From a virus, in the IMG/VR virus record IMGVR_UViG_3300033571_024725, positions 1 through 32,624 of that record: a stretch of 32,624 bases of DNA; one strand, 5' to 3'. The position numbers were made by a program, and so were the translations under genes. This document shows positions 64-20,213 of this stretch, piece by piece. Every line of letters begins with the position of its first letter. Within the stretch, counting starts at the first letter, position 1. Below the pieces are notes generated by a model. That model worked only from the letters and a program-made list of their open reading frames with translations, did not search any database and was not told the origin of the DNA.

Positions 64-70
64 TTTGACA
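64..70 (+). promoter_or_regulatory. Start-associated heptamer TTTGACA, copy 1
   Basis: TTTGACA followed by exactly 13 nt and then GTG at 84. The same spacing recurs at seven other genes, which supports GTG 84 as the true start rather than the out-of-frame ATG at 79. Function unknown. Confidence 0.7.
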
Positions 71-83
71 CTTCGGCCATGGC

Positions 84-791
84 GTGGTCGATCTGCTAGG
101 CAAGCCGGAAGTTGAGCGGACGCCGAAAGGTTCAATCTCTCGGTGGGCGGCTCGGTATGGTTACTCGAACCGCGCGGTCAAAGGGTTCCTTGCCACTGGC
201 AAGGCGGCGGGGGATGTGCCTCCGTTCGATGAGCCGGAGAAAATGGAGGACTGGGGGCGGCGCCACCTTGGGAAGATCACCGGCCGGTTTCGGGCCGGGA
301 TCGAGCAGGCCATGGGGAAAGAGGCCGCCGCGGTGCCCGAGGCTCCGGAAAGTTTCTCGCCAATCCAGCTCCCCGATGTCCAGGCGCATGAGATGGGGAT
401 GGAAGTCCAGCTCGACGGCTACCGGCGGGAGTTCGCGATGCTGGCAAAGATGCGGGAAAAGGCTCTCACCGATGGCGATTTCTCCAGGGCGAACAACTAC
501 TTCGACCAGCAGAGCAAAGTCTCCTCCGAGATCCGGCAGCTTGAGCGGCTCCTGCCGACCATCCTTGAGCAGCGCGGGGATTTCCAACGCACCGCCGAAA
601 CCCGCGCCGCCACCATCGAATTTTTGACAGTGCTGAAACGCTCCCTCCTCGGGCGTGGTGCGAAAGCCGCCGGGCGTCTTCGCGCGGCGTCCTCCGATGT
701 GGAAATGCAGGAAGCCTGGCGCGAACAGATCATCGCCGTTTTCCGGGAGTGTTGCTCGCAGGGCTTCGGCGAAACCCTTTCCCTAGAATGA
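84..791 (+). CDS. Terminase small subunit (probable)
   Basis: A 235-residue protein directly before, and overlapping by 4 bp, the GpA-type large terminase, where phages encode the DNA-recognition subunit of the packaging motor. Residues about 15-60 look like a helix-turn-helix of the Nu1 kind (an ISRWAARYGYSNRAVKGFL stretch). The middle is charged and helical (about 105-170) and could oligomerise. An in-frame stop at 66-68 leaves no earlier start than GTG 84, and the start-associated heptamer ends 13 nt before it. The call rests mainly on position and the HTH-like N-terminus. It would bind the packaging site and hand DNA to the large subunit. Overlap with 788 suggests translational coupling. 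Confidence 0.7.
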   Translation: MVDLLGKPEVERTPKGSISRWAARYGYSNRAVKGFLATGKAAGDVPPFDEPEKMEDWGRRHLGKITGRFRAGIEQAMGKEAAAVPEAPESFSPIQLPDVQAHEMGMEVQLDGYRREFAMLAKMREKALTDGDFSRANNYFDQQSKVSSEIRQLERLLPTILEQRGDFQRTAETRAATIEFLTVLKRSLLGRGAKAAGRLRAASSDVEMQEAWREQIIAVFRECCSQGFGETLSLE

Positions 792-2677
792 AAGCCCGCG
801 ACCTGATCCTCTCGTGCTTCCTCACCGTTTTCCAGCCGCGCGGGGTGATGGGGCTGGGCGCGTGGATGGCCACCAACATCAACCTCCGCTCAACGGAAAA
901 CCCCGGCAAGCCCGGCGCTTACGATCCCGGCTACACCCCATTGCCGGCCATGATCGTCGATGACTTCATGGGTTCCGCCGAGTGGGACGAGCTGCATGTC
1001 CAGAAATCCTCCCAGGCATCGCTCTCCTTTCACACCATGGGGCACCTCGTCCGGAAGATCGCCGAAGATCCAGGAAATGCCATGTATGTGATCGACTCCG
1101 ACAAAGAGGCGAAAAACATTTCCGAGCGCCTGAAAGCCCTCATCGAAGACAGCCCCGCCACCGCCGGGATCTACACCGACTGCCAAGACGAAATCCTCAA
1201 CCTCACCATGCGCCTCCCGGGCATGAACCTCTGGCTGACCGGCGCGGGCTCCGCCGGATCGCTTGCCAACAAAACCGCCACCCTCGGCATCTCCGACGAA
1301 ACCGACAAGCACAAGCTTACCCGCGGCGAGGCGAACACCGTCGATCTTCTCCGCTCCCGGTTGAAAGAGCAGACCGGCGCCAAGCTCATCAACTACTCCA
1401 CCCCCACCCTCGCCAACGGCCAGATCCACCAGGAGTATCTCAGCGGATCACGCCACAAAGCCTTCGTCCCCTGCCCCCACTGCTCCGAGAAACAGGAACT
1501 CGTCTGGGAGCGCGTGAAATTCGGCCATTGCAAAGACCTTACCGGCGAGTGGGATCTCGACCGCGTCTCCCGCGAGACCTACTACGAGTGCGCGGCCTGC
1601 CTGCAGCCGATCCACGACCACCACAAGCGCGCCATCGTCGCCCAGGGCGAGTGGCGTCCCACGAATTTCCGCACCGCCATCGGCGATGATGGCATCGAGA
1701 AACTTGTCCCCGCCTGGTATCCGCGCCGGATGTCCGCCCACTATTCCGACCTCTATTCCCAGAACGAAAACGTCTCCTTCGGCCGCCTTGCCCTGAAATT
1801 TATCGCCGCGCTGAAAGACCCCATGAAAATGCGGGACTTCCTGCAAAACAACCTCGGCCAGCCCGATTCCGAAAGCGTCTCCGACGTCACCGAGGACAAG
1901 ATCCTCGCCCTTCGCGGAGCCTACCGCCGCCAACGCCCCGACCAACTGGAAGCCGACGGCCAAGCCATCGACATGGGCACACCCATTCCCGTCCGCCCGC
2001 TCTTCTGCGCCCTCCTTTCCGATACGCAGGACGACAACTCGAAATACACCCTCCAAGCCTTCTCCCGCACCGGCGATCAATACATCATCGACTGGGGCTC
2101 CTGCATGGAGCTCGCCGATCTCGACGACGTCATGCTCCGCACCGTCCGCTGGACGGAAAGGCAGCCCGACGGCACCATCGAATCCGGCGAAATGCCCGTT
2201 TCCGTCTGCATGATCGACGAAGGCGGCCACCGCACTTACGAAGTCCGCGAGCACGCATACGCCCGTTTCCCCTCCGTTTTCACCTCGAAAGGCTCCAGCT
2301 CCTCCGGCTCCATCATCGCCCTCCGCGATCATCGCATCCGCAAGGCCGACGAACTCGCCCCCACCATGCCCGTCGTGGTTTATGACGACAACACCTTCAA
2401 GCGCGATCTCTACATCCGCCGCATCGCCCGCTTCGATCCGGAGAAATTCGCAGCCTACGGCCAAGCCCGCACCTGGCTCCCGGTCAACCTTGAGACCGAG
2501 TTCACCCGCGAACTCATGAAAGAGCGCCTCGAACGCGATCGCGACGGACGCCTCCGCTGGAACACCCCCAAGGGAAACGACTGGGGCGACACCGTCAAAA
2601 TGGGCCTCATCATCAACACCTACCTTTCCCCCGAACTACTCCGCGCCGAAGCGGCAGAGGCGATGAATGCCGGGTGA
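788..2677 (+). CDS. Terminase large subunit, GpA family
   Basis: A 629-residue ATPase/nuclease that pumps phage DNA into the prohead and cuts it, as lambda gpA does. An ATPase domain lies in about residues 50-220: the P-loop position reads KSSQASLSF (73-81), and LGISDETD (166-173) looks like Walker B. A Zn ribbon follows with CPHC (229-232) and CAAC (268-271), typical of GpA proteins. The nuclease half (about 415-610) has SDTQDD, IDEGG and a conserved WGDTVKMG end. The P-loop lacks the usual GK[ST] signature; lambda gpA is also deviant, so it is probably still active. ATG 788 overlaps the stop of the small subunit (ATGA). Family is clear and gene order agrees. Confidence 0.93.
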   Translation: MKARDLILSCFLTVFQPRGVMGLGAWMATNINLRSTENPGKPGAYDPGYTPLPAMIVDDFMGSAEWDELHVQKSSQASLSFHTMGHLVRKIAEDPGNAMYVIDSDKEAKNISERLKALIEDSPATAGIYTDCQDEILNLTMRLPGMNLWLTGAGSAGSLANKTATLGISDETDKHKLTRGEANTVDLLRSRLKEQTGAKLINYSTPTLANGQIHQEYLSGSRHKAFVPCPHCSEKQELVWERVKFGHCKDLTGEWDLDRVSRETYYECAACLQPIHDHHKRAIVAQGEWRPTNFRTAIGDDGIEKLVPAWYPRRMSAHYSDLYSQNENVSFGRLALKFIAALKDPMKMRDFLQNNLGQPDSESVSDVTEDKILALRGAYRRQRPDQLEADGQAIDMGTPIPVRPLFCALLSDTQDDNSKYTLQAFSRTGDQYIIDWGSCMELADLDDVMLRTVRWTERQPDGTIESGEMPVSVCMIDEGGHRTYEVREHAYARFPSVFTSKGSSSSGSIIALRDHRIRKADELAPTMPVVVYDDNTFKRDLYIRRIARFDPEKFAAYGQARTWLPVNLETEFTRELMKERLERDRDGRLRWNTPKGNDWGDTVKMGLIINTYLSPELLRAEAAEAMNAG

Positions 2678-2678
2678 C

Positions 2679-2685
2679 TTTGACA
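2679..2685 (+). promoter_or_regulatory. Start-associated heptamer TTTGACA, copy 2
   Basis: TTTGACA, 13 nt, then GTG at 2699. It begins just after the large-terminase stop. TTGAC (2680-2684) could pair with GTCAA (2705-2709) across the start codon, but the loop would be long. Confidence 0.7.
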
Positions 2686-2698
2686 CCCCCGCCCTCCC

Positions 2699-2980
2699 GT
2701 GGCCGTCAATGCTCTCGTCGTCAAAAGTCTCACCCTCACCTACACGCGCACGCAGTTGGAAACCGCCCGCGCCACGGCGGCGGCGGACATCCTTTCCGGC
2801 GTGCAGGTGACGCAAGTCAATTTCGAAGGCGGCGGAGCCTCCGGACGCCCCATTTCCGGCGATCCCGCCTACGTCCTGGAGCACATCCAGTCCGCCCTGG
2901 ACACACTCGACGATCCGGATCTCCCCAATCGTCCTTCATCCGCCTTTATGGATCTTTCCCGCCGCACTTTCGGCACCTAA
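2699..2980 (+). CDS. Head-tail joining protein, gpW-like
   Basis: A 93-residue protein between the large terminase and portal, the slot held by lambda W (order A-W-B). gpW plugs the portal after packaging and provides the surface for tail docking. The sequence has a helical N-terminal half and the pattern ending in YVLEHIQSALDTLDD that small gpW-type joiners often show, but no diagnostic motif. GTG 2699 is chosen because it is the first start after the large terminase and has the heptamer at the fixed 13-nt distance. It ends 3 nt before the portal ATG, so the two are probably co-translated. The call depends largely on gene order. Confidence 0.65.
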   Translation: MAVNALVVKSLTLTYTRTQLETARATAAADILSGVQVTQVNFEGGGASGRPISGDPAYVLEHIQSALDTLDDPDLPNRPSSAFMDLSRRTFGT

Positions 2981-2983
2981 ATC

Positions 2984-4555
2984 ATGTCCCGCACCCGCCG
3001 TTCCCGCCGTTCCCGCGCCGCCGCCTTCGATGTTTCCGGCATCGCTGCGCCGTCGGCTGCCATCATCCCGCAAAGCGCCGGTTACGCCCCCAGCGGCCAG
3101 GGATACGATGCCGTTTCCGCCTCCACCATGCGCGGATATGTTTACTGGCCGCAGATGGACACGCGGAAAGAAGTCACCGCCCACACCCACATCGAGATCT
3201 GCCGCCGGGCCCGCGCTTTGTGTGAAAACGTCGGCCTCGCCGGGCACCTCATCGAGTGCATGGCGGATCTGATCGGCTACCTCATGCCGATGGGCGCCAC
3301 GCTCGACAAGGAATGGAACGAGCTGGCAAACGCCAACTTCCTCTCGAAGCAAACCGTCCCCGAAGTCTTCGACGCCTCGGGGAAATTCAACTTCTTCGAA
3401 TACCAGCTCAAGCTCGACGAATCCGCCTTCCGCGATGGCGACGTCCTCCCCGTCCTGACCGAAACCTCCTCCGGCTCCGCCCGCATCGCCACTTACGAGT
3501 CACACCAGATCGCCAACCCCTACGGCGTCCCGCAGAGCGTCGATGGCTGGATGCACGGCGTAAAGCTGAACCGTTTCAACCGCCACATGCGGTATTCGAT
3601 CACCGATCCCGCCGACAAAACCGCCATCCGCACCATCTCCGCCGGTGACTGCATCTACTACGGCCACTTCAAAAAAATCGGGCACGTCCGCCCCGTTTCC
3701 ATCCTCCGCGCCGCCATCAATCACCTTCAGGACATCGGCGAGATCGTCCGCGATGTGAAATACGGCATCAAGGTCCACAACCAAATCCCCCTCACCCTCG
3801 AAAGCCAGCTTGGCACGAATTTCCAATCCAACGCCACCCAGTCCATCGTCGGAAATGTCCGTTCCCGCTCCGTTCCTGGCAGCACCGATACCAGCACCAC
3901 CGCGCAAAAAATCGATTACGAAGAAGTGATGTCCGGCGGAAACATCCCACGCCTCCAGCCCGGCCAATCCCTAAAAGCCCTGGTCTCCGCCACCCCGCAC
4001 CCAAACCAGCTCGCCCTTCTCGATTGGATGGTCCGCGACATTTCATGGGGCTGCGGCTTACCTCCGGAAATCGTCTGGAACATGGACAAGCTCCGCGGAG
4101 CAAACAACCGCCTCCTCAACTCCAAGCTCCAGCGCTGGATCGGAGCCCGCCTCCTCCGCAAAAAAAACTTTGTCCGCCGCTTTTGGGTCTATCACGTCGC
4201 CAAGGAAATGAAAGCCGGCCGCCTCCGCGAGTGCCGCGATCCGGAGTGGTGGAAAGTCGCCATGCTCCCGCAGGAATCCATGACCGCCGACAAAGGCCGC
4301 GAAGGAAAACTCAACATCGATCTCGTCGCCAACCGCCTGATGAGTCTTCAGGACTTCTTCGCCCTCTCCGGCAAAGACTGGCTCACCGAGATCCGCCAGA
4401 TGGCCGCCGAAAACGACCAGCTCCGCGACCTGGGCCTCGCCGTCGCCGACATCGCCCGCGCCACCGCAAAATTCCCCGCCGAGCAACTCGACGAACCCGA
4501 TGAAGACGATCCCGCCACCGCGGACATCGAGGACGAGGAAGAGGAAGAGGAATGA
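2984..4555 (+). CDS. Portal protein, lambda gpB family
   Basis: A 523-residue protein, close to lambda gpB (533). The portal forms the dodecameric ring at one capsid vertex through which DNA is pumped and where the tail joins. The N-terminus is basic and Arg/Ser-rich. The core carries family-like features: a GWMHGVKLNRFNR segment, the RPVSILRAAINHLQDI helix, and a WGCGLPPEIVWNM motif followed by a long helix with RGANNRLLN. The C-terminus ends in an acidic run of Asp and Glu (last ~25 residues). Flanking terminase, gpW-like and S49 protease genes agree. ATG 2984 is the first start after gpW. Confidence 0.92.
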   Translation: MSRTRRSRRSRAAAFDVSGIAAPSAAIIPQSAGYAPSGQGYDAVSASTMRGYVYWPQMDTRKEVTAHTHIEICRRARALCENVGLAGHLIECMADLIGYLMPMGATLDKEWNELANANFLSKQTVPEVFDASGKFNFFEYQLKLDESAFRDGDVLPVLTETSSGSARIATYESHQIANPYGVPQSVDGWMHGVKLNRFNRHMRYSITDPADKTAIRTISAGDCIYYGHFKKIGHVRPVSILRAAINHLQDIGEIVRDVKYGIKVHNQIPLTLESQLGTNFQSNATQSIVGNVRSRSVPGSTDTSTTAQKIDYEEVMSGGNIPRLQPGQSLKALVSATPHPNQLALLDWMVRDISWGCGLPPEIVWNMDKLRGANNRLLNSKLQRWIGARLLRKKNFVRRFWVYHVAKEMKAGRLRECRDPEWWKVAMLPQESMTADKGREGKLNIDLVANRLMSLQDFFALSGKDWLTEIRQMAAENDQLRDLGLAVADIARATAKFPAEQLDEPDEDDPATADIEDEEEEEE

Positions 4556-4601
4556 TCCTCTTCCCTGAAACCTGAACACTCAACCCCAGCAAACTTTCCC
4601 G

Positions 4602-5477
4602 ATGAAACAGCTCCCCCGCATCGCCGCCCGCCTCTACTGCGAGCCATGGAACATCCTCCCCACCAACCACGCCGAGATCGGCAGGCAGTTCCGCGCCCAT
4701 CTTGAGGCCGGAGGCGCGCTCCCCGCCGCCTTCGCCGCCCGCACGGAGTTGGAAAACGCCGCCGACGATCTCACCGGCCCCGCCTGGCGCGATGAGGAAG
4801 GCCGCGTCGGAGCATTTCACACGCAAGTCACCGTGGAAGGCACCACCGCCATCCTCCCCATCCGTGGCGTCCTCGGGAAACACCTCTCCACCCTGGAGAT
4901 GTATTGCGGCGGCTCGGACTACGCCATCATTTCCCAGCAGGCCGCCAACATCGCCGCCGATCCGCGCATCGATCGCGTCATCATGCTCATCGACAGCCCC
5001 GGCGGCAACTGCGTCGGCAACCTCGAATGCGCCCGCTCCCTCCTCGCCATGGCCGGCGTGAAAGACACCGTCGCCTACACCGACACCATGGCCTGCTCCG
5101 CCGCCTACTTCCTCGCATCCGCCGCCGGAGCCTTCATCGCCGCCCCCTCCGCCTTGGTCGGCAGCATCTCCACCTACTGCGCTTACCTGGACGAGTCCCG
5201 GGCCTACGAAATGGAAGGCGTCGAAGTGAAAATGTTCCGCTCCGGCGAAGTGAAAGGAGCAGGCTACCCCGGCAAGCCATGGACGGAGGCCGAGATGGTC
5301 TCCATGCAAGCCGTCACCGATTCCCTCGCCGTCCAGTTCAAAGGCTTTGTCCGCGAGCGCCGCGGCCTCCCCGATTCCGCCATGCAAGGCCAATACTGGC
5401 CAGCCGACTCCGCCCCCGAAGGCGTCATCGATGATATGGCTGACTCCCTCGCCGAACTCCTCCAGCGCCTCGGCTGA
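4602..5477 (+). CDS. Prohead protease, S49 (ClpP/SppA-like), lambda gpC type
   Basis: A 291-residue serine peptidase that would trim scaffold and portal during capsid maturation. The crotonase-like core begins near residue 82 (AILPIRGVLG). IDSPGG (130-135) supplies the oxyanion glycines, Ser166 in ACSAAYF is the likely nucleophile, and Lys218 in GEVKGAG the general base, the S49 Ser-Lys dyad. It is shorter than lambda gpC (439), stopping soon after the protease domain. In lambda the scaffold is nested in the end of C; no nested scaffold is evident here, and a coiled-coil gene at 6182 may serve. A C-rich 46-nt gap precedes ATG 4602. Confidence 0.9.
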   Translation: MKQLPRIAARLYCEPWNILPTNHAEIGRQFRAHLEAGGALPAAFAARTELENAADDLTGPAWRDEEGRVGAFHTQVTVEGTTAILPIRGVLGKHLSTLEMYCGGSDYAIISQQAANIAADPRIDRVIMLIDSPGGNCVGNLECARSLLAMAGVKDTVAYTDTMACSAAYFLASAAGAFIAAPSALVGSISTYCAYLDESRAYEMEGVEVKMFRSGEVKGAGYPGKPWTEAEMVSMQAVTDSLAVQFKGFVRERRGLPDSAMQGQYWPADSAPEGVIDDMADSLAELLQRLG

Positions 5478-5481
5478 TCCC

Positions 5482-5742
5482 ATGGCCGATCCTTCCAGAT
5501 CCCGCCGCTTCCACGCTCCCAAGCGCGTGATGTTTCCGCTCCCCGTCAGCCTGTCCCTCTGCTGCGCCGCGCCCCTCGTTCCTTCCTCCCCCGGCATACG
5601 CTGCACCAAGTGCCGCGCCGCCACGGAGGCCGTCCACGTCCGCCACCTGGGCAGTTGCTACGGCGCAAAACTCGGAGATAAAAAAGCGATCGGCATCACC
5701 GCCACCTGCGCCGTGGAAGCCATCCGCGAGATGGCAGTTTGA
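5482..5742 (+). CDS. Small Cys-containing protein, unknown function
   Basis: An 86-residue ORF starting at ATG 5482, 4 nt after the protease stop. A CTKC pair near residue 41 and further cysteines suggest a small metal-binding knuckle like those of zinc-ribbon phage proteins. It has no clear Shine-Dalgarno site, and the N-terminal half is basic. It opens a run of three small genes placed between protease and scaffold/capsid, which looks like inserted cargo. Its stop overlaps the heptamer of the next gene. Coding status is moderately supported by position and codon composition. Confidence 0.5.
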   Translation: MADPSRSRRFHAPKRVMFPLPVSLSLCCAAPLVPSSPGIRCTKCRAATEAVHVRHLGSCYGAKLGDKKAIGITATCAVEAIREMAV

Positions 5743-5760
5743 CATGCAACGCATTGCATG
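5738..5760 (+). promoter_or_regulatory. Start-associated heptamer, copy 3, with start-codon dyad
   Basis: TTTGACA (5738-5744), 13 nt, ATG 5758. A perfect inverted repeat CATGCAA-CGCA-TTGCATG (5743-5760) includes the whole start codon. It could be an RNA hairpin limiting initiation or an operator for the DNA-binding protein encoded next. Confidence 0.65.
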
Positions 5761-5976
5761 ACCAAACAACATCCCGCAAAGCAGTTACCAGTAATGCTAT
5801 TGACCCGCCCCGAGGCAGCTCAGATCATGGGCGTAAGCATGCGAAAAACAGACAGTTTGATCGCGGAAGGAAAACTGCCGGTGGTCAGGATCGGAGCGTC
5901 TGTTAGGATTTCCCAAAAGTCCTTGGCTGAGTTCATTGAATCGATGGAAACCACTTCTCCATACAAAAACAAGTGA
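5758..5976 (+). CDS. Excisionase-family helix-turn-helix protein (MerR-like HTH_17)
   Basis: A 72-residue DNA-binding protein. Residues 14-61 follow the excisionase/MerR-like plan: LLTRPEAAQIMGVS (first helices and turn), an I/EGKLPVVRIG wing, then a SVRISQKSLAEFIES helix. Such proteins bend DNA in integrase complexes or repress transcription. The gene is clearly less GC-rich than its neighbours and interrupts the head operon, suggesting acquisition. The dyad over its own start codon suggests autoregulation, which is inference. It could be the directionality factor for the integrase at 27.3 kb despite the distance; a second protein of similar fold is encoded at 30866. Confidence 0.75.
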   Translation: MTKQHPAKQLPVMLLTRPEAAQIMGVSMRKTDSLIAEGKLPVVRIGASVRISQKSLAEFIESMETTSPYKNK

Positions 5977-6191
5977 ACGATTCATGCTCAAATTGCAAAT
6001 GGTGGGATGCGCTTGACGAGACGGATGGTTTTTGCGTTCGCTACGCTCCGCGCCCGTTTCTCGTAGAGAAAAAAGAAGACTGGACAACAAGGGAAGTGAT
6101 ATGGCCTCCCACTTCCGCCGGTAGATTTTGCGGAGAGCATCAGCCGAAGAATCGAGCCCAATTTGACACGCCCCGCAGGGCATGTCAGTGA
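5973..6191 (+). CDS. Small Cys-rich protein, probable zinc binder
   Basis: A 72-residue protein beginning with GTG 5973, overlapping the preceding stop by 4 bp. The N-terminus has CSNCKWW (Cys5 and Cys8), then FCVRY (Cys21) and RFCGEH (Cys53), enough ligands for one zinc site. Many phage and bacterial genomes carry short proteins of this CxxC-WW...C...C layout, but I know no assigned role. It is AT-richer than the capsid genes, like the HTH gene it overlaps, so the pair probably arrived together. Its last codons overlap the next gene's start (6182). Confidence 0.6.
   Translation: MNDSCSNCKWWDALDETDGFCVRYAPRPFLVEKKEDWTTREVIWPPTSAGRFCGEHQPKNRAQFDTPRRACQ
6162..6187 (+). promoter_or_regulatory. 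Start-associated heptamer, copy 4, with start-codon hairpin
   Basis: TTTGACA (6162-6168), 13 nt, ATG 6182. Bases 6164-6173 and 6178-6187 form a 10-bp stem with one mismatch around a CGCA loop (TGACACGCCC against GGGCATGTCA), burying the start codon in the stem. The site lies inside the end of the preceding gene. Confidence 0.7.
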
Positions 6192-6691
6192 ACGATAACC
6201 CGCCCGCCCCGGTAGAGGCGCAGGAAACCGCTCCGGCTCCGGCCGTTGCAGCGATCCCCGCCCCCGCCGAAACACCCGCCGCCGAGAGCGCCGCTCCGCG
6301 CAAGCCCGGATTCTTCGCCCGCCTCGCCGGTGCCGATGAAGCCGTCGCTGCCGCAAACAGCGCACTCGCAGCAGAGAAGGCTGCCCACAACGCCACCCGC
6401 ACCGAGCTCGCCAACGCGCAAGCCCTCGTCGCGGAATACCAGGCGCTTGAGGCTCGGTTGGAAGCCGCAGAGACAGCCAGCATCGCCGCCGTAGCGGCAG
6501 CGGCAAAGGCCACCGCCGAAATCCCCCGGCAGGTCGCGACACAAGTCGCCGCCACCGTGGAAGCCCTCGGCGTCACCGAGGACAAGCTCCCCGCCGCCTC
6601 CGAGGATCCACCCGCCAAAGGCGAGGAGTTCTCCCACCTGAAAGGCCGCGCCCGCGCCGCTGCCGCCTTCTCCGCCCAATTCGCGCGCTAA
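6182..6691 (+). CDS. Alanine-rich coiled-coil protein, candidate scaffold
   Basis: A 169-residue protein just before the major capsid gene, the usual place of the assembly scaffold. Residues 1-40 are Pro/Ala-rich and likely disordered. A long Ala/Glu helix with coiled-coil character covers about 50-120 (ANSALAAEKAAHN, LEARLEAAETAS). The C-terminus is charged (GEEFSHLKGRARAAAAF), like the capsid-binding end of scaffolds. ATG 6182 is supported by the heptamer at 13 nt. Position and composition suit an internal scaffold cleaved by the S49 protease; a capsid-decoration or head-fibre role is possible. No family motif is recognised. Confidence 0.55.
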   Translation: MSVNDNPPAPVEAQETAPAPAVAAIPAPAETPAAESAAPRKPGFFARLAGADEAVAAANSALAAEKAAHNATRTELANAQALVAEYQALEARLEAAETASIAAVAAAAKATAEIPRQVATQVAATVEALGVTEDKLPAASEDPPAKGEEFSHLKGRARAAAAFSAQFAR

Positions 6692-6728
6692 CCGTTTCAA
6701 ATAACACCCCCACCCCCCAAACACCACC

Positions 6729-7649: not shown

Positions 7650-7655
7650 CCCCCC

Positions 7656-7683
7656 GCGGCGCGGGCACCACCGCCCGCGCCGC
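7656..7683 (+). terminator. GC-rich hairpin after the capsid gene
   Basis: Perfect 11-bp inverted repeat GCGGCGCGGGC (7656-7666) and GCCCGCGCCGC (7673-7683) around a 6-nt loop, 7 nt after the capsid stop. There is no T run, so it is more likely a transcript-stabilising 3' hairpin or attenuator than a full terminator. Confidence 0.6.
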
Positions 7684-7712
7684 ACCCAAACTCCCACCCC
7701 ACCCCCACGACC

Positions 7713-10192: not shown

Positions 10193-10199
10193 TTCGACA
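10193..10199 (+). promoter_or_regulatory. Start-associated heptamer TTCGACA, copy 5
   Basis: TTCGACA, 13 nt, ATG 10213, at the end of a pyrimidine-rich leader (10154-10192). Variant with C at the third base. Confidence 0.65.
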
Positions 10200-10212
10200 C
10201 TTCCACCGCATC

Positions 10213-10560
10213 ATGGGCATGTCCTTCTCCCAGCTTGGCCGCTTCCTCACAAAAGCGGACGCCACCCTCACCGAACTCTTCCCCGGCACGCTGGTCATCG
10301 CGGGCGTCAGCTACGCCGTGGCGGCCGTGGGAGCCGGTTCCGCCATGATGGAGTTTGCCAGCGACTACGGCGGCGGCCAGTCACCGCAAGGCAGCCGCTT
10401 TTTCCGCCTTTCGAAAGCCCTGCTCCCCACCCGTCCCGAGACCGGCACCCGGGTCACATGGTTGGGCGCAGGCTCAGAAACCGCCCTTACTATCATGGAG
10501 TGCCCGGATCGCCCCCACGAGCAATCCTGGATGCTCCGCTGCGAACCCACGAACCGATGA
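10213..10560 (+). CDS. Head-tail connector candidate, unknown family
   Basis: A 115-residue protein in the gap between capsid and tail genes, where lambda FII and similar small beta-barrel stoppers lie. Residues 1-25 are helical and the rest looks beta-rich (TLVIAGVSYAVAAVGAG, VTWLGAGSETALTIM). FII-type proteins join the portal ring to the tail. No diagnostic motif is seen, so the call depends on position. Its ATG is fixed by the heptamer at 13 nt, and its stop overlaps the next start (ATGA). Confidence 0.5.
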   Translation: MGMSFSQLGRFLTKADATLTELFPGTLVIAGVSYAVAAVGAGSAMMEFASDYGGGQSPQGSRFFRLSKALLPTRPETGTRVTWLGAGSETALTIMECPDRPHEQSWMLRCEPTNR

Positions 10561-11829: not shown

Positions 11830-11850
11830 TTTGACAAGCCCCGCTTGTCA
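11830..11850 (+). promoter_or_regulatory. Start-associated heptamer, copy 6, with perfect hairpin
   Basis: TTTGACA (11830-11836), 13 nt, ATG 11850. TGACAAGC-CCC-GCTTGTCA (11832-11850) is a perfect 8-bp stem with a 3-nt loop ending on the A of the start codon. Confidence 0.75.
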
Positions 11851-12224
11851 TGTCAGCCAACCTGATCGGAACCGTCGCACCATGGGGCATTGCAGCCGCC
11901 GAAACCTCCATCGGCATCATCATCGAGGGAATCGATGAAACGACACGCAACGAGAAAAACTACATCAAAAACATCGTCGGCGAACGCACAGGCCGCTCGG
12001 ATTTTGATGAATCCATCGAGGTGAAACTCTCCGGGAAGATCACCAGCACCGCCCCTTTCACCACCAAGCTCGGCGCGAACATCACCCTGGCGAACACCAT
12101 CGTCTCGAACTCCCTCTTCAACAACAACACCGGCCGCACCGTCGTCAACGAAGTGAAGCGCAGCGCATCCAACGAAGACTGGCGCGGCATCGAGGTGGAC
12201 ATCGAGATCCTGCCCTTCTTCTGA
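11850..12224 (+). CDS. Tail tube (major tail) protein candidate
   Basis: A 124-residue protein in the lambda V position, after the gpU-like gene and before tail chaperone and tape measure. Thr/Asn/Ile-rich with alternating strands (SIEVKLSGKITSTAPF, GANITLANTIV, GIEVDIEILPFF), consistent with the small beta-barrel of tail tubes, and followed by a terminator as a highly made product often is. It is shorter than lambda gpV (246) because there is no Ig-like extra domain. The hairpin over its start hints at translational control. Function inferred from position and composition. Confidence 0.65.
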   Translation: MSANLIGTVAPWGIAAAETSIGIIIEGIDETTRNEKNYIKNIVGERTGRSDFDESIEVKLSGKITSTAPFTTKLGANITLANTIVSNSLFNNNTGRTVVNEVKRSASNEDWRGIEVDIEILPFF

Positions 12225-12237
12225 TTTCTGCCAGCCA

Positions 12238-12265
12238 CCCCGAACCGGCGCAGGCGGGGGTTTTC
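12238..12265 (+). terminator. Probable terminator after the tail tube gene
   Basis: CCCCG (12238-12242) pairs with CGGGG (12255-12259); GTTTTC follows. The stem is short (5-6 bp) but the stop-stem-T-run arrangement is typical and lies directly after a likely abundant product. Confidence 0.5.
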
Positions 12266-12313
12266 ATATGTTTTACCCCGCCCGCGCCACATTTTCCGAC
12301 CATATCCCCCACC

Positions 12314-13090: not shown

Positions 13091-13299
13091 AACAAACCGA
13101 CAAACCAACCGCCGAAGCCACGCCAAACACCGCCATCATCGTCACCCCCACCGTGGAAGTCTCCCCCGCGCTCGCCGCCGGAGACACCGTGAAACACGCC
13201 AACGGAACGGAATACAAGATCCGCCACATCACCGAAGAAGGAGTGGCCCTCGAAGGCGTCGCCAACCTAGTCCACCCCTCCGCCCTCACCAAAGTCTGA
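13087..13299 (+). CDS. Small protein, unknown function
   Basis: A 70-residue protein starting at ATG 13087, overlapping the previous stop by 4 bp. The first 30 residues are Pro/Thr/Ala-rich and likely flexible; the rest is a small beta barrel-like segment (GDTVKHANGTEYKIRHITEEGVALEG) resembling the SH3-type folds seen in small phage accessory proteins. It precedes the tail chaperone gene and may be a tail accessory protein. No motif identifies it. Confidence 0.55.
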   Translation: MKQTDKPTAEATPNTAIIVTPTVEVSPALAAGDTVKHANGTEYKIRHITEEGVALEGVANLVHPSALTKV

Positions 13300-13338
13300 T
13301 CCATCCAAAATCCAAAATTCAACATCTAAAATTTTCCC

Positions 13339-13971
13339 ATGAAATCCCGCATGTCCCTCCTCTCGGAAGCCTTCCGAGACACGCCGCTCACCTTCCTCGG
13401 CCAGCCGCTCCGCCCCGTCACCGCCGGGACGATCCTGCTCCTCATGGAAAGCGTCAACCCGCTTTTCAGCGAAGCCGATACCGAGCCTACGGAATCGGAT
13501 TCGCTGCTTGCCCTCTTTGAGTTCATCCACATCCACACCGCCCCCGAAGAGGAGGTCATCGAGGACTGCGCCATCCTTGGCAGGCTGAAAAAGAAAGCCC
13601 GCATGCTCGCCATGCACGCCCCCCTGGATGAGCTGCAGGCATTCTCCGAAAGATTCGGCGCCCTGCGCACCCGCCTGGAGGCCGCCACCGCCGAGATCAT
13701 CCCGGAGAAAAGCGAGGGAAAGCCGGAAGCGGCAACGACGCCGCCCCTCACTGGATCGCCAACATCGTCCACGCACTCGGCGGGGCCGGCGACCCTGCGC
13801 GCGAAAAATGGATCATCTGGGAACTACCCTTCGAGCGAGCCCTCCAATACCTCCACGCCGCCCACATCGCCAACGGAGCCCGAACCCGCTGGTCGGTTCC
13901 GCATCTGGGAACCCGATCCCACCGAGACCCTTCCGCCGGAGGAGGAGGAGAACGTGACCCCGCTGCCGTAG
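13339..13971 (+). CDS. Tail assembly chaperone, G-type frame
   Basis: A 210-residue zero-frame product in the lambda G position, directly before the tape measure gene. The first 128 residues are helical and acidic (ESVNPLFSEADTEP, LALFEFIHIHTAPEEE) and would bind the tape measure protein and tail subunits during assembly. At codons 127-128 lies the slippery GGGAAAG. Past this the zero frame continues for about 82 codons of low-complexity Ser/Thr/Pro/Glu sequence, much longer than the lambda G tail, and overlaps the T-type frame. An AT-rich leader (13303-13335) precedes ATG 13339. Confidence 0.75.
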   Translation: MKSRMSLLSEAFRDTPLTFLGQPLRPVTAGTILLLMESVNPLFSEADTEPTESDSLLALFEFIHIHTAPEEEVIEDCAILGRLKKKARMLAMHAPLDELQAFSERFGALRTRLEAATAEIIPEKSEGKPEAATTPPLTGSPTSSTHSAGPATLRAKNGSSGNYPSSEPSNTSTPPTSPTEPEPAGRFRIWEPDPTETLPPEEEENVTPLP

Positions 13972-14078
13972 TCGCCGCCCTCCGGAGAGCCTGGATGGAA
14001 AACACCCCCCCTCCCCACATCTCTCCCTCTCCCGCTCCTCTTCCCGATCGCTCTTTCGACACTCCCGCCATCACATGA
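13339..14078 (+). CDS. Tail assembly chaperone GT fusion made by -1 frameshift
   Basis: Reading 128 zero-frame codons, slipping back one base at GGGAAAG and continuing gives a 246-residue protein. The -1 frame (13722-14078) is open and reads like a real tail chaperone domain, with HWIANIVHALGG then REKWIIWELPFERALQYL. It ends at a TGA (14076-14078) that overlaps the tape measure ATG (14075), as expected for coupled genes. In lambda, gpGT is made at a few percent relative to gpG and binds both tape measure and tail tube. This frame has no good start of its own, so it is reached by slippage. Confidence 0.82.
13716..13722 (+). other. Programmed -1 frameshift site GGGAAAG
   Basis: The heptamer falls in the zero frame as G-GGA-AAG, the X-XXY-YYZ pattern and the same slippery sequence as lambda G/T. 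After it the -1 frame has no stop for 118 codons. I did not identify a convincing downstream stimulatory structure. Confidence 0.8.
14055..14061 (+). promoter_or_regulatory. Start-associated heptamer TTCGACA, copy 7
   Basis: TTCGACA, 13 nt, ATG 14075. The site lies inside the -1 frame coding end of the chaperone, at the end of a pyrimidine-rich tract. Confidence 0.65.
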
Positions 14079-16093
14079 ACGGCATCAACATCCCCATCGG
14101 CGGCGACATGGCTCCCTTCCTAGCCGCCGTGGCGGAGTTGAAAGTCGCCATGCAGGATCTCGCATCATCGATCCGCGGCAGCCTCGCCCCCGCCGCCAAG
14201 GCCACCACGGAAACCACCCGTGGCATGATGAACGCCGCGACCGGAGCCACCCGGGCGAAAACCTCTTTCAAGGGGCTTTTCGGCACCATGTCGGAGGTGG
14301 GCATGGGCATCGCCAACATCGCCGCCGGAGCCAAGGGAGTCCGCAGCGCCTTCCGCTTTGTTTCATCGCTTTCGTCTGGCTGGCGCAACGTCGCCAAGGC
14401 CGCCCTGGGAGCCGCCGCCGCCGTCGCGGGCATCATCCTCGCCGCCAAGGCCGCCGGTGCCGCCTTCCGCGTGCTCATGGGCACCGCGCGCGGCGTCTGG
14501 GGTAGCATCAAGGCAGGAGCCAGCTCCGCCGCCTCTGCTGTGAAAGGTGCGTTTTCCGGCATCGGCGGTGCCATCCCCGGCGGCGGGCTTCTCGCTCCTC
14601 TCCTCGGCATCGCCGGAGTGGCCGGCTCCATCATGCTTCTGAAATCCCAGCTCGCCGGGGGCTTCGACCTCGCGGGCGAGATCGAGCGCACCGGAGTCGC
14701 CCTCACCGCCCTCACCGGCTCCGCGCCTGAGGCCGCCCGAGTGATGGACGAAATGCGCAAGACATGGCTCCGCACCGGCACTGACATCGCGGAGCAATCC
14801 GGCACGATCCGCAAGTTCATCGCTCTCGGATTCTCCACCGATGACGCGATGAAGCTCCAGAAAAACATCCTCGATGTCGCCGGAGCCGTCGGCCTCACCA
14901 GCGCCGAGGCCGGGCAGCTCGGCAGCGCGCTCGCCCAGGTGCAGGCGAAGGGCATCGTCTCCATGGAGGAGCTCCGGCAGCAGATCGCGGAAAAAGGAAT
15001 CCCGGTTTTCGATCTACTTGCGAAAAAGCTCGGCGTCACCCAGGCGGAGCTCATGAAGCTGGTGGGTGATGGCAAAGTGCCATCCGAAGCCCTTCTTTCC
15101 ATTTTCCTGAACATGGAAGGCGCCCTCGGGAAATTCTCCGGCGGAGCCGAGCGCATGGGCATGACCTTCACCGGCCTCGTCGCCCGCATGCGCGGCGCAT
15201 GGGAACTCCTGCGCGCCGAGTTCATCGCCCCCATCGCGGACTCGCTCAAGCCCATCCTCGACGCGGGCATCGCCAAGCTGGAGACTTTCAAGGAAGCATT
15301 CCGTGAAGCCGGTAAAACCATCGGAGACACCGTCCTCGCCACCTTCGCTCTCATCCAGGGCGGAAAGGTCGGCGAAGTGTTTGCAAAGGGTCTGGACCTC
15401 GCCATCGCCGGAGCCATGGATCTCCTCATGCGCAGCCTGCAATCCGCCGTTTCCTTTCTCGCATTCGCTCTCCCTCCGATTTTCGACAACCTCTTCAGCC
15501 GCCTCTCCGATCCGCTTTTCCTGAAAGGGCTCGTCAACCTCTTCTCCGGCATCGGCAGCACCCTCGCCTTCCAGATCCGCTCCGCATTCCCCGGCGGCGC
15601 GCACACCATGACCCCCTTCGACGAAGCGCAAGGCCCCGGCCGCATCGAGGGAGGCATGGAACAAATGGCCGCCGGAATGGCACGCAGCGAGAAAACGCTT
15701 GGCGAGGTTCTCAGCGGCGCGCTCGGCAGCGGCATCGCTGCCGCCAAGGAAGGATTCGGGGAAACAGGCCAGTCAGTGAAAGACGCCGCCGCCGAATACA
15801 AGGCGCTCATGGAAACCGTCCGCAAGGAAACCGAAGCCCTCCGAGCCAAGTTCGCCCCTCCCGCCGAAGGAAAAAAAGAAAACGCATTTTCCCCCACCAC
15901 CGGCCTCGGCGAAGCCGTCAAGACCGCCGTCGGCCAGGCGATGACCCTTACCACCTCCCTCGGCCGTGTGGGCGGCGGGGGATTCGGGCGCACCTTCCTC
16001 CCCATGGTTTCCGAGACGAAGAAATCCAACCAGCTTCTCGGCGTCATCGCCCGCAACACCGCCAACTTCGCCGCCACCCCCGCCATCGTCTAA
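14075..16093 (+). CDS. Tape measure protein
   Basis: A 672-residue protein that sets tail length and is ejected with the DNA. N-terminal Ala-rich helices; hydrophobic segments at about 110-138 and 168-190. Residues about 200-350 match the TMP_2-type tape measure domain (GVALTALTGSAPEAARVMDE, GLTSAEAGQLGSALAQVQAKG, LRQQIAEKGIPVFDLLAKKLG). The C-terminal third carries a second hydrophobic region (SAVSFLAFALPPIF). Length predicts a tail of about 100 nm by the usual rule of 0.15 nm per residue. Start at ATG 14075 is supported by the heptamer and by overlap with the chaperone stop. Confidence 0.92.
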   Translation: MNGINIPIGGDMAPFLAAVAELKVAMQDLASSIRGSLAPAAKATTETTRGMMNAATGATRAKTSFKGLFGTMSEVGMGIANIAAGAKGVRSAFRFVSSLSSGWRNVAKAALGAAAAVAGIILAAKAAGAAFRVLMGTARGVWGSIKAGASSAASAVKGAFSGIGGAIPGGGLLAPLLGIAGVAGSIMLLKSQLAGGFDLAGEIERTGVALTALTGSAPEAARVMDEMRKTWLRTGTDIAEQSGTIRKFIALGFSTDDAMKLQKNILDVAGAVGLTSAEAGQLGSALAQVQAKGIVSMEELRQQIAEKGIPVFDLLAKKLGVTQAELMKLVGDGKVPSEALLSIFLNMEGALGKFSGGAERMGMTFTGLVARMRGAWELLRAEFIAPIADSLKPILDAGIAKLETFKEAFREAGKTIGDTVLATFALIQGGKVGEVFAKGLDLAIAGAMDLLMRSLQSAVSFLAFALPPIFDNLFSRLSDPLFLKGLVNLFSGIGSTLAFQIRSAFPGGAHTMTPFDEAQGPGRIEGGMEQMAAGMARSEKTLGEVLSGALGSGIAAAKEGFGETGQSVKDAAAEYKALMETVRKETEALRAKFAPPAEGKKENAFSPTTGLGEAVKTAVGQAMTLTTSLGRVGGGGFGRTFLPMVSETKKSNQLLGVIARNTANFAATPAIV

Positions 16094-16147
16094 CCCTCTT
16101 CCTCTTCGTTTAGAATTTAAAATTTAGAGCTTAAAGCTTTCCTCCCC

Positions 16148-16891
16148 ATGCCAACAGTCAGGAAAACCAACGTCCTCCTCACCCGCGACTTCACATGGAA
16201 GTTCAAGGGCAAGGCCAGCGATGACAACGCCACCTCCGTCCTCCGATACAAGGACGACTTCGCCGACTGGCAAACGCGCTGCCCGCTTTACGGCGACCCG
16301 CACCCCGATCTTCCCGACTTCAAGCTCACCGAGATCGAGGCGGACCGCGAGCCCGGCGACCAGATCGCCGTCACCCTCACCTATGAGGCGAACACCTTCG
16401 CAGTGGAGCTCCCCGGCAAACCCGGCGCGGAAGAGGCCACGGCGCGCTATTCGGCATCCATCACCGGCCGCGAGGAGCACATCCTCACAAACCCTTTCGC
16501 CTCAGAACTCTCCGATACCGAGCTCAAGGCGCTTCTCAACATTTCCAACGGGTCCGAAAACAAGGACGACGGCTCTGCTTGGGATACCGATGTCACCTCT
16601 GAGAACGGCATCGCGCTCCTTTCAAAAATCCGCAAGGGCAACGTCGCGTGCAAATCCAACTCCGTCATCTACACCGAGCGGAAACTGGTCAATTCCCTCT
16701 CTGAAATCAATTATTCCGCCGTCAACAAGCGGCAGTCCCCCCCCGGCCCCGCCACCGGCGGAGCAGCAAACTGGCTCTACATCGGAGCCAATGCAGACCC
16801 CTCGGAAGACGGCGAGACATGGACGCTTGAGCGCCAGTGGGAGTTCAGCCCCACAGGATGGGACCCGGATCTCTACCCCGCCGTATCATGA
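16148..16891 (+). CDS. Tail protein after the tape measure, unknown family
   Basis: A 247-residue acidic, soluble protein in the slot where siphophages encode distal-tail or tail-tip proteins. It is mostly beta (VLLTRDFTWKFKGK, QIAVTLTYEANTFAVEL, ARYSASITGREEHIL) with a helical middle (SELSDTELKALLNIS). No motif identifies it as lambda M, L or K, and there is no NlpC/P60 protease. It is preceded by an AT-rich leader (16109-16140) and coupled to the next gene (ATGA). Role as tail-tip component is inferred from location. Confidence 0.55.
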   Translation: MPTVRKTNVLLTRDFTWKFKGKASDDNATSVLRYKDDFADWQTRCPLYGDPHPDLPDFKLTEIEADREPGDQIAVTLTYEANTFAVELPGKPGAEEATARYSASITGREEHILTNPFASELSDTELKALLNISNGSENKDDGSAWDTDVTSENGIALLSKIRKGNVACKSNSVIYTERKLVNSLSEINYSAVNKRQSPPGPATGGAANWLYIGANADPSEDGETWTLERQWEFSPTGWDPDLYPAVS

Positions 16892-17556
16892 AGCCACTCC
16901 CCCGCGCCAAGATCGGAAAGCCCGGCACCGTCTCCCCGGATGCCTGGAACCGCGTCATCGACGAGCTGGAGGCCATGAAAAAGCGCGTTGCCGCGCTCAC
17001 CCCGCACGCCTCCCCGGACATCACCCACAAGCATTCCCAGAACGGCTTCACCTCCCACCTCACACGCCGCCGCAGCGGCGGCGGGGGAAATCCGATCAGG
17101 CCTCTGGTCATCTTGGGAAGTCGCCCCGCATACATTGAGGCACCCGCTTCCCCCGTCACCCCGCCCGCAAAACGATATTTCATAGAGTGGGGAACAATTA
17201 ACGAGATTGTCGCAACGAACTGGGACGCCCATTTCGACCTCAGCGCCACCAGGTATTTCTTCGCGGAAATCACCTTTGTCGCCTCGGATCAGCTCAAAGT
17301 GGCTTCATGGCAGATACTCACCGGAGCAGCTTCCAACACCCACGTCACACCCGACTGGGACGTAGGTGATCCGCGCCCGGCAAAGATGGTGATTCTGCTT
17401 GGGGTCGTCTCTGTGATCGGCAGCACTCACACCATTTCCCAGTCTGGCGCAGGATCTATTTCGGTGGGTGAGCAGATCACCACGATCAACCAGGGCGGGG
17501 CGGGCGAAACATTGATCGGCAAGCAGCTTGTTTATCAGCGTCAAAACCACGAATGA
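16888..17556 (+). CDS. Tail-tip or fibre-associated protein, unknown family
   Basis: A 222-residue protein starting at ATG 16888 inside the overlap with the previous gene. The first 50 residues include a helix (DAWNRVIDELEAMKKRVAAL) that could trimerise; a Gly/Arg-rich linker follows, then beta strands (RYFIEWGTINEIV, RYFFAEITFVAS) and a Gly/Ser-rich repeat-like end. A helical bundle followed by beta is common in tail fibre or fibre-attachment proteins. It overlaps the next gene by 4 bp. Confidence 0.5.
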   Translation: MKPLPRAKIGKPGTVSPDAWNRVIDELEAMKKRVAALTPHASPDITHKHSQNGFTSHLTRRRSGGGGNPIRPLVILGSRPAYIEAPASPVTPPAKRYFIEWGTINEIVATNWDAHFDLSATRYFFAEITFVASDQLKVASWQILTGAASNTHVTPDWDVGDPRPAKMVILLGVVSVIGSTHTISQSGAGSISVGEQITTINQGGAGETLIGKQLVYQRQNHE

Positions 17557-19307
17557 ACTTTTCTGAGTCACAGTTGAGACCGCCCCAGACCGGATTTCTC
17601 TCTGCAAAGTCCGTCGCTTACCGGGTCCCGCACACTCCCTTTTGGAACGATCCCGCGACAAACGCGGAAAGCAAAACGCGGGCCTTCTATGGAGATGATT
17701 TCTTTCTCCAAAACAAGAGCACAATCGAATACGAGGAAGATCTCCCCGATAACCCTGGAGAAGGCCGTTTTGTCTCGAACGATCCGATCTGCGGTTTTGC
17801 CGCTTACAGCCTTTCCACAGCGGTCGGTTATGGACTCAGCGAAGATGACTCGGGGACGAGGGAACTGGTTTATGTTTTTGATGAGACGGAAAACGAGGTG
17901 CGCATCGAAACCATCGCCGTGGACGGGCATCCCACCGGAGGGTTCAATACGCGCACGGCTACCACCTCGGTCAGCGGAAACCAATACGAAGATGATCCCG
18001 AAAAAGTCGCCTACGCCACCGTTACCCTGTCGGGTGCAGTAAACAAGACGACGCTGGGAGATTACCTGGATGAGTGGCGGAGCAAGCCTGAAGAGTTCCG
18101 CTTTTTAACGGGGAACACTGCAGGCGCGACGAAAAGCGAGAGCGACGGGTATCTGGCCGAGGTCGGCGGCGGAGATCTTCGGGCGCGGCCATACACCTTC
18201 AACGCCTTCTCCGCATCCGGTATGACCGGGGACATTGCTGCGCTGTGGAACGGAAATTTTACGGCGGAAGTTTCCCGTGTCACCCGGAAAAACGCCCCTG
18301 TGATATATCGGGAGCAATCAGAAGGTCATACCTACGAGGTCACTTTTTTAAGTATTGGAAGTAACATTTACAGGAATGGCTATTCGGAGGAAAGCGTTTC
18401 CGATCCGATTACTTCATACCGGGATGATTACGGGATTTTCGAAGATGGGGAGGGACTGGAAAACTCTCCGCTTTTTTCTACCTCAGCATATACAATCGGC
18501 GATTTGGTAGGTGGCACTGGAGACGGAAATGAAAATTCTGTTTTTTTCATTTCTAGGGACGGCAAGCAATACCGACTGACTTTTCCGACAGAGGTCTTGA
18601 TTACGGACGCCAATACGCTCAAGTCTCCAGAGATAACCATAGAAGCCTCGGGAGGTCTTGAGAAGATTGAGCAGAAAGTGGAAGGGGATTGGGTTGTACT
18701 GGCTGACGTTGAAAATGGCGATAACCCACAAAACCTAATAGGATACAGTGTTCGCGATACAAATACACGGCTCTTTGCGGTGATCCGCCGCAGGCGGGGG
18801 TCACGTTACGGCTTCCTTCCCCTGGACTACATCGGGTCCACGCGCTATCGGGTAAAAAGTTACAAAATACATCTAACTCCTGAAACTGTCATTTTAGATG
18901 ACGGGGCGTGTGGTGACGATGTAAGCGGCAGCTACGATGCGGAATGGTATCAGGAGCATGATGCCGTCACAGGCCTCCTGAAACCGCGAGTGGTTACGGA
19001 ATGGGCGGCGGTGATCAATGGCGAGGACTGGACGCCGGAAGATGCTCCCTCTAATGTCTTTTTTTCCGGCAGCACTCTAGTAACCAGCACGGCAACGCTC
19101 CAACGCTGGGAAGGCGAACCAATAACAAGCGGGCGGTTCATCGTCGCATTCGACTACCCAATTCCCGACGGGAAAATCATATCGACCTCCACGTTTTCCG
19201 CTGCCGTGTCATTTACCGGCGGGATCAACGTCAGCGAAGAAGTGGCATTGTTGCCACCTGCATCCGGTCGATCGGTGTTTTTCGAGGGATTCCGTTTGCG
19301 CGAGTGA
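17553..19307 (+). CDS. Large tail protein, unknown family
   Basis: A 584-residue beta-rich protein coupled to the previous gene. It contains repeated Tyr/Gly/Asp-rich segments (VAYRVPHTPFWND, ENEVRIETIAVDG, YTFNAFSASGMTGD) and no Cys cluster or membrane segment. Part of it (about 18300-18800) is distinctly AT-rich compared with the flanks, suggesting recent exchange of an internal domain, as happens in host-recognition proteins. It replaces, in order, lambda J/I/K genes, none of which I can match. Probable role: baseplate or central tail-tip protein. Confidence 0.5.
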   Translation: MNFSESQLRPPQTGFLSAKSVAYRVPHTPFWNDPATNAESKTRAFYGDDFFLQNKSTIEYEEDLPDNPGEGRFVSNDPICGFAAYSLSTAVGYGLSEDDSGTRELVYVFDETENEVRIETIAVDGHPTGGFNTRTATTSVSGNQYEDDPEKVAYATVTLSGAVNKTTLGDYLDEWRSKPEEFRFLTGNTAGATKSESDGYLAEVGGGDLRARPYTFNAFSASGMTGDIAALWNGNFTAEVSRVTRKNAPVIYREQSEGHTYEVTFLSIGSNIYRNGYSEESVSDPITSYRDDYGIFEDGEGLENSPLFSTSAYTIGDLVGGTGDGNENSVFFISRDGKQYRLTFPTEVLITDANTLKSPEITIEASGGLEKIEQKVEGDWVVLADVENGDNPQNLIGYSVRDTNTRLFAVIRRRRGSRYGFLPLDYIGSTRYRVKSYKIHLTPETVILDDGACGDDVSGSYDAEWYQEHDAVTGLLKPRVVTEWAAVINGEDWTPEDAPSNVFFSGSTLVTSTATLQRWEGEPITSGRFIVAFDYPIPDGKIISTSTFSAAVSFTGGINVSEEVALLPPASGRSVFFEGFRLRE

Positions 19308-19308
19308 A

Positions 19309-19315
19309 TTTGACT
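19309..19315 (+). promoter_or_regulatory. Start-associated heptamer TTTGACT, copy 8
   Basis: TTTGACT, 13 nt, ATG 19329. The last base differs from the other copies. It follows the preceding stop by 1 nt. Confidence 0.55.
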
Positions 19316-19328
19316 TCCCCCCCAGCGC

Positions 19329-20213
19329 ATGATCCTGTCATCTGCGCAAGGCCGCTATGCCCTCTCGGCCGTAGGCACGGCCACATCAACGGGAGTTTCC
19401 GGCAGCCCTACCATCGGCTTCGCACCCGTGCCCATCACCTATCCGGACGCTTCGGTCGCCTACGTCGCCCGCTGCATCCTTGCCGCCGCGACGGATGAGG
19501 CGATCATCGTCCTTTCCACCGGCGTGACCTCCGCCTCCGATGTGTGGGTTGCAGGAGTTGCCCAGGTGGAGACCGCCACCATCGTCGCCGCGGCCGGCTG
19601 CACATCCAACGGCACCATGACCCTCGTCGTCACCTCCGCAGGGATGGCCGGCTCGCCGAAAAACGTCGCCGTCCCCCTCACCACCGCCGCGCACACCACC
19701 GCCGCCCTCATCGCCGCCGCCGCCCGCACCGCCCTGGCTGCGGATACCGCCGTGGCCTCCCGCTTCACCGTCGGCGGATCGGGAGCGGCCATCACGCTCA
19801 CCCGCCTTCCGTCCTCCACTTTCACCATCCCCACCGGCACGCTGCCAATCTACCCGGCCAACGATGGCACGCTGAACCTCGCCATCCCCTCCGGCCTCGG
19901 CGTCACCGCCGCCGCCACCTCCACCAACACCACCGCAGGCGTCGCCAGCGACGGAGCCTACTGGATCGATGGGGACGGCAAGGACTTCGAGGGCATCACA
20001 CTCCCCACCATGACCGGGCTTTTCGGACTCCTCATCAAATCGAACTCCGGCGCATTCAACCTCACCACCACCGGCTCCGAGTATGGCGACGAGATGCTGG
20101 ACGGCCAGACCGTCATCCGCCTTTCCGACGGCACCACAGCCTTACCCGTCACCACCGCCACCTTCGCCGCCGTCTCCACCTCCGACCTCACCCTGACCGT
20201 TCTGGGTTACTGA
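19329..20213 (+). CDS. Ala/Thr-rich tail fibre protein
   Basis: A 294-residue protein made largely of Ala, Thr, Gly, Ser and Val strands (GTATSTGVSGSPTIGFAP, GTMTLVVTSAGMAGSP, GLGVTAAATSTNTTAG). Such composition is typical of fibrous or Ig-like phage surface domains. There is no recognisable enzyme motif. The start is supported by the heptamer at 13 nt. With the next genes it forms a fibre block. Confidence 0.5.
   Translation: MILSSAQGRYALSAVGTATSTGVSGSPTIGFAPVPITYPDASVAYVARCILAAATDEAIIVLSTGVTSASDVWVAGVAQVETATIVAAAGCTSNGTMTLVVTSAGMAGSPKNVAVPLTTAAHTTAALIAAAARTALAADTAVASRFTVGGSGAAITLTRLPSSTFTIPTGTLPIYPANDGTLNLAIPSGLGVTAAATSTNTTAGVASDGAYWIDGDGKDFEGITLPTMTGLFGLLIKSNSGAFNLTTTGSEYGDEMLDGQTVIRLSDGTTALPVTTATFAAVSTSDLTLTVLGY

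Follow-up and report, generated by a model that had tools for sequence, protein, structure and literature searches.

Start-associated TTGAC element

In this study, a short repeated element at gene starts was analyzed in a viral DNA of 32,624 bases and 60% GC (IMG/VR record IMGVR_UViG_3300033571_024725), the whole of which is referred to here as the window. The element is TTTGACA or a close variant, placed at a fixed distance upstream of the start codon. Its core, TTGAC, was tied to the start codon at 13–17 nt in three data sets. Judged from sequence comparison, the element is most likely a phage-specific translation-start signal that is read in the mRNA and is distinct from the Shine-Dalgarno (SD) sequence; the probability of this reading was put at about 0.55. 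No earlier description of a TTGAC start element was found in the literature searched.

The initial annotation listed eight heptamers, each 13 nt before a start codon. All eight coordinates were exact (Table 1); the start codon was ATG at six sites and GTG at two, and the frames ran from 72 to 672 codons. The claim that composition does not account for the fixed distance was borne out by the shuffled control proposed with it. In 300 dinucleotide shuffles, the mean number of heptamers at 13 nt was 0.04, with a maximum of 1, and across spacings from 3 to 40 no shuffle of the whole window exceeded 2. TTTGACA at 13 nt ranked first among all heptamer-by-spacing combinations in the window, and none of the other 419 letter permutations of TTTGACA exceeded 2. 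Because the heptamer alone was barely enriched (19 vs. 13 expected), the spacing and not the heptamer is the special feature. The start-element observation was thus confirmed.

Some details needed correction. The list missed a ninth copy with a longer spacing at 23732, so the interval, previously ended at 19331, should reach 23758. A C before the start codon was present at all eight sites, but it is only partly specific to the element (83% of motif starts vs. 47% of other starts in these phages). The exact 13-nt sites lie in the head-tail module, with none to the right of 19.4 kb.

Conservation in related phages

The closest record was IMGVR_UViG_3300004155_000012, whose proteins are 45–83% identical across most of the late module, as far as 16.9 kb. 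The spacing was kept, within 13–17 nt, in related phages, and this closest relative carried the element at six orthologous starts (Table 1). The spacers of the two phages had diverged, and substitutions just past the start codon were largely synonymous (e.g., in the genes starting at 2699 and 11850). This pattern indicates that the starts are real and that the heptamer is held by selection.

Relatives were collected by a major capsid search, and about 34 distant contigs were used for a blind ranking of positional 5-mers at gene starts. TTGAC at −19 was the top 5-mer (29 vs. 2.0 expected), and −22 formed a second peak. Through TerS, 80 additional contigs were found. TTGAC[T/G/A] was found 13–17 nt before TerS in 57/57 distinct leaders with a readable start. 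TTGAC was invariant in these leaders, and most columns upstream of it held less than 0.5 bit. After the TerS starts were removed from this set, TTGAC at −19 was still the top k-mer (28 vs. 2.3), and spacings of 13, 14, 16, and 17 stood out. The definition as a heptamer plus 13 nt describes the eight window sites but is too narrow for the relatives, in which the core is TTGAC[A/T/G] or TCGACA and the permitted spacings are 13–17 nt. Over 21 gene families, the consensus of the 13-nt sites was TTYGACA-CSCCCNCCRKGGC-ATG.

Among annotated phages, only Akkermansia phage Chantilly had a related capsid; no element was found in it at 13–17 nt, one chance-level case aside. TTGAC lies 19–23 nt before the starts of three of its late genes (5571, 7775, and 8278 in L014), either by chance or as a longer-spacing variant. 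A TerL scan of genome contigs gave no match.

Genes carrying the element

Within the set examined, TerS, joining, and tail genes had the element, and portal and major capsid genes were always without it. In a gene-family permutation test, 60 discordant homologous pairs were observed against 137 expected, and 0/5000 permutations were as extreme; a heterogeneity statistic across gene families likewise gave 0/5000. A first version of the test, which used pairs in which both members had the motif, did not reach significance. Presence of the element is a stable, conserved property of the gene family, and the element stays with its own orthologous gene while flanks and spacers diverge.

Presence of the element also varied with the intergenic gap. 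It was carried by 23/33 genes with a gap of 15–28 nt, 0/31 with a gap of 4–14 nt, and 7/36 with a gap of 29–60 nt (p = 3e-5). The corresponding figure for gaps of 15–28 nt in the TerS set, which includes redundant contigs, was 73/77. The upstream TGA often lies within the element, or the element adjoins the preceding stop codon, so the gap is little more than the element itself.

The leaders of major capsid and portal genes were often longer and A/C-rich, or the start abutted the upstream stop. At the major capsid gene and the next gene (6729 and 7713 in the window; 9622 in L020; 5040 in L024), the leaders had neither SD nor TTGAC and were A/C-rich and apparently unstructured; they form a second start-leader class in these phages.

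Shine-Dalgarno usage and hosts

SD-like cores were found at 6% of motif starts and at 23% of the remaining starts in these phages (p = 0.02). The element does not pair with the 16S 3′ end, and the initial view that it is no SD sequence was upheld. Overall SD use in the window, its closest relative, and a further relative (L018) was not above background. Five capsid relatives without TTGAC (L029, L056, L064, L068, and L130) had SD-like cores at about 40–50% of starts, so the initiation style differs within one phage family.

Capsid relatives were found in 17/388 Verrucomicrobiota genomes and TerS relatives in 10/388. Several of these prophages carry the element. A host-wide signal was rejected on the sampled genes of G080, G231, G071, G330, and the AT-rich G119. 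Since the sampled host genes are without it, the TTGAC element is a phage signal. Judged by inspection, a spacing of 13 nt was not notably more frequent than a 21-nt control across 145 Verrucomicrobiota genomes. Some genomes showed a raw excess of TTTGACA-N13-ATG that was at least partly due to composition (G119 has 30% GC). At the control spacing, the outlier G122 was a multicopy repeat: more than 20 near-identical copies of TTGACACGTATGAAATCACGTGTTGCCATG (e.g., C3:6625-6654), probably an insertion element. On a host contig of G330 (L286, about 17841–18048, minus-strand coordinates), two adjacent genes have TTGACA at 15–16 nt, possibly within a prophage fragment.

Proposed function

The upstream edge of the 30S footprint is expected at about −20 to −14. 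In the proposed mechanism, the TTGAC[A/T/G] (or TCGACA) core would lie at this edge, followed by a GC-rich spacer of 13–17 nt that runs up to the start codon and often forms a small hairpin. The element would act like a ribosome-binding site for genes without SD, translational coupling, or a long unstructured leader. UUGAC would be recognized during translation by a protein, of phage or host, or by the ribosome itself. This reading is favored because of the position at the 30S edge, the linkage to the start codon and not to a promoter feature, the occurrence mainly at genes lacking other initiation aids, and the near absence of SD. The initial annotation had offered roles in translation, transcription, or recombination; start-codon linkage and the gap distribution favor the first, and recombination is without support, as flanks and spacers diverge freely and the element remains at its orthologous gene.

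Several points weigh against the translation-start reading. A stable hairpin beside the start codon normally hinders initiation. The element is never found at the major capsid gene, which presumably has the highest expression. The SD difference was weak in the second contig set (p = 0.08). In four host chromosomes (G080, G231, G071, and G330), sampled over 190–400 kb each with genes called by a simple script, TTGAC was found at 0.7–3.3% of called genes with no positional peak; because host genes do not use the element, a special reader must be assumed. The 6-nt complement of UUGACA (UGUCAA) was absent from the 16S rRNA of one host, whose 3′ end, read directly, was intact (CCUCCUUUCU). Direct rRNA pairing is therefore unlikely, and the reader would probably be a protein. 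A more specific and only tentative proposal, itself rather unlikely, is that the phages reprogram initiation through a phage-supplied or phage-modified ribosome-associated factor that reads UUGAC at the 30S subunit's upstream edge.

Spacer hairpin and alternative explanations

Among the alternatives, the one that survives best is a translational operator, in which UUGAC and a hairpin would be the target of an RNA-binding protein, of phage or host, that represses low-copy structural genes or sets the timing of their translation. The folding of the leaders is among the points for it. Shuffling the spacer made the fold of TTGACA, spacer, and ATG less stable (z −7.2 for the real sites), and folding was stronger at motif starts (about −3.5 kcal/mol) than at the remaining starts (about −1.3 to −2.2 kcal/mol). 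At some sites, the hairpin can pair TTGAC with the bases preceding ATG. Perfect hairpins of different sequences were present at the 11830 site (Table 1), at 5739 of the closest relative (TGACAC-CCCTCCC-GTGTCA), and in L058 (GACTCCGC-AGCCA-GCGGAGTC). The gene-specific conservation, with capsid and portal genes always free, is also what an operator would give. However, folding was not found at every site. Across gene families, swapping halves between sites erased most of the folding effect, a null result for the half-swap test (z −0.4). A universal hairpin was rejected on this result, and pairing was retained only for a subset of sites and for TerS. Leaders of 29–60 nt have space for an operator, yet they carry the element less often than gaps of 15–28 nt. 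A phage regulator shared by the window and its closest relative was not found outside the structural and lysis genes. An operator is accordingly considered unlikely, though not negligible.

The hairpin was best supported in the TerS leaders. The half-swap z was −3.0, and every slid version was worse; 76.7% of cells were paired vs. 69.3% in shuffles (0/500) and covariation was 0.207 vs. 0.115 (1/500). All of these figures may be inflated by sequence kinship. An Rfam search of the window gave 0 matches at the gathering threshold. Long inverted repeats including or flanking the start codon were observed at 5496 in L033, 2282 in L024, and 7092 in L025, such as TTTCCACGC..GCGTGGAAA; in L025, the ATG lies in the loop.

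TTGACA is also the consensus of the sigma-70 −35 box, and it could be a −35-like or phage polymerase element for many short or leaderless late transcripts. Phages may have many promoters, and a fixed distance to the start is expected with leaderless transcripts. However, TANNNT occurred near the start at 3% of sites vs. 4% in controls, and among position-fixed DNA elements sought upstream and downstream of the motif, only the start codon was found. The distance is thus fixed to the start codon and the −10 partner is absent, in agreement with the initial statement that the element is not a normal promoter. A leaderless promoter, with an AT-rich −10 box about 7–12 nt before the start, was rejected as well, since the spacer that would have to melt is 73% GC. 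About half of the called genes of the TerS set, redundancy included, would each need a promoter of this kind. This explanation is improbable.

Cleavage of UUGAC by an endonuclease, which would trim every cistron to a short leader, fits the location at gene boundaries, often directly past a stop codon, but it is very unlikely, as a processing site need not keep a set distance from the start codon and no nuclease is implicated. An artefact of stop-codon context, composition, or recombination linkers is already contradicted by the present results: the TGA in TTGAC is the upstream stop at 41/77 TerS sites, and the 17-nt TTGAC match of TerL was rejected as a probable false positive inside conserved TerS coding sequence, yet TCGACA variants contain no stop, sites at least 40 nt from the upstream stop retain the spacing, T1, T2, and C5 are invariant to the same degree as TGA, composition is excluded by the shuffles, and the element remains with its own gene despite diverging flanks.

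Element sites and gene content of the window

The late module of the window is siphovirus-like and comprises genes for TerL, portal, head protease, major capsid, tape measure, a fibre-like protein, and endolysin; an integrase gene sits on the reverse strand. The sites of the element are listed in Table 1.

Table 1. Sites of the start element in the window and their counterparts in the closest relative and in L018 (spacing in nt).
Element	Position	Strand	Gene at the start	Spacer or overlap	Closest relative	L018
TTTGACA-N13-GTG	64..86	+	ORF 84-791, 235 aa, upstream of TerL		64, spacing 14	
TTTGACA-N13-GTG	2679..2701	+	ORF 2699-2980, 93 aa, between TerL and portal		2692, spacing 13	spacing 15
TTTGACA-N13-ATG	5738..5760	+	ORF 5758-5976, 72 aa, HTH_17/excisionase-like	hairpin TGCAA-CGCA-TTGCA		
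TTTGACA-N13-ATG	6162..6184	+	ORF 6182-6691, 169 aa	GCCC-CGCA-GGGC	5739, spacing 13	
TTCGACA-N13-ATG	10193..10215	+	ORF 10213-10560, 115 aa		ATCGACA-N13-ATG, before 9848	TTCGACA-N13
TTTGACA-N13-ATG	11830..11852	+	ORF 11850-12224, 124 aa	perfect hairpin TGACAAGC-CCC-GCTTGTCA	12339, spacing 13	9981, spacing 13
TTCGACA-N13-ATG	14055..14077	+	ORF 14075-16093, 672 aa, tail tape measure		TTGACA-N16-ATG, before 14686	
TTTGACT-N13-ATG	19309..19331	+	ORF 19329-20213, 294 aa			
TTTGACA-N17-ATG (ninth copy)	23732..23758	+	ORF 23756-26272, tail-fibre-like	TGA within the element is the stop of ORF 21052-23736		

The HTH_17/excisionase-like gene bears the element; it is an insertion in the head module of the window, and the closest relative is without this gene. 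Structure prediction for the product of the gene at 11850 reached a pLDDT of only 29. Positions 1–70 of the window and of L009 show that two related contigs (27.4 and 32.6 kb) share their start point within about 1 base. The shared start is just upstream of the first late gene and the ends are weakly similar; it is perhaps a true packaging end (cos).

Comparison with known systems and significance

The initial annotation compared the element with the start-associated sequences (SAS and ESAS) of mycobacteriophages while noting a different sequence, and the comparison was apt. SAS of cluster K mycobacteriophages is GGGATAGGAGCCC; it contains the SD core AGGAG, lies 3–7 bp from the start, and occurs at non-structural genes only, and its function is unknown, with a role in translation suggested (PMC3203893, PMC12699233). 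Both are short repeats of a single orientation that lie shortly before many phage starts, kept by gene family and rare in the host; the upstream stop is sometimes inside, and an inverted repeat is present at about half of the copies. The present element differs in its TTGAC core without the GGGATAGGAGCCC/AGGAG consensus, its distance of 13–17 nt, its occurrence at structural genes, and its presence in Verrucomicrobiota phages. SAS is the nearest known kind, and the TTGAC element works alike yet stands outside the SAS family.

Other systems share single features with it. The SD sequence also lies at a short fixed distance from start codons within polycistronic late transcripts, but the TTGAC element has no complementarity to the 16S 3′ end, and the usual SD position is nearer the start codon. 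The sigma-70 −35 element shares the hexamer TTGACA; here, no −10 partner is present and the start codon sets the distance. Phage operators (T4 RegA and RNA-phage coat) resemble the element in the small start-codon hairpins at a subset of sites, whereas the hairpin here is not universal and an operator role is putative. The non-SD, A-rich leaders of Bacteroidota, in which the anti-SD is concealed, serve initiation in SD-scarce bacteria, and Verrucomicrobia also include SD-scarce members (PMC10783764). The setting is likewise low in SD, but those leaders are a diffuse compositional signal of the host, in contrast to a near-invariant phage word of 5–6 nt.

The element bears on the open question of start selection by ribosomes in bacteria that are poor in SD. 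If a phage-supplied or phage-modified factor does read UUGAC, it would steer ribosomes toward viral genes in a host making hardly any use of SD pairing, and the element would be a virus-specific start signal. A precisely spaced, near-invariant viral word that host genes do not share is a defined handle on both the reader and the rule. The element would also aid start annotation and the metagenomic recognition of Verrucomicrobiota phages.

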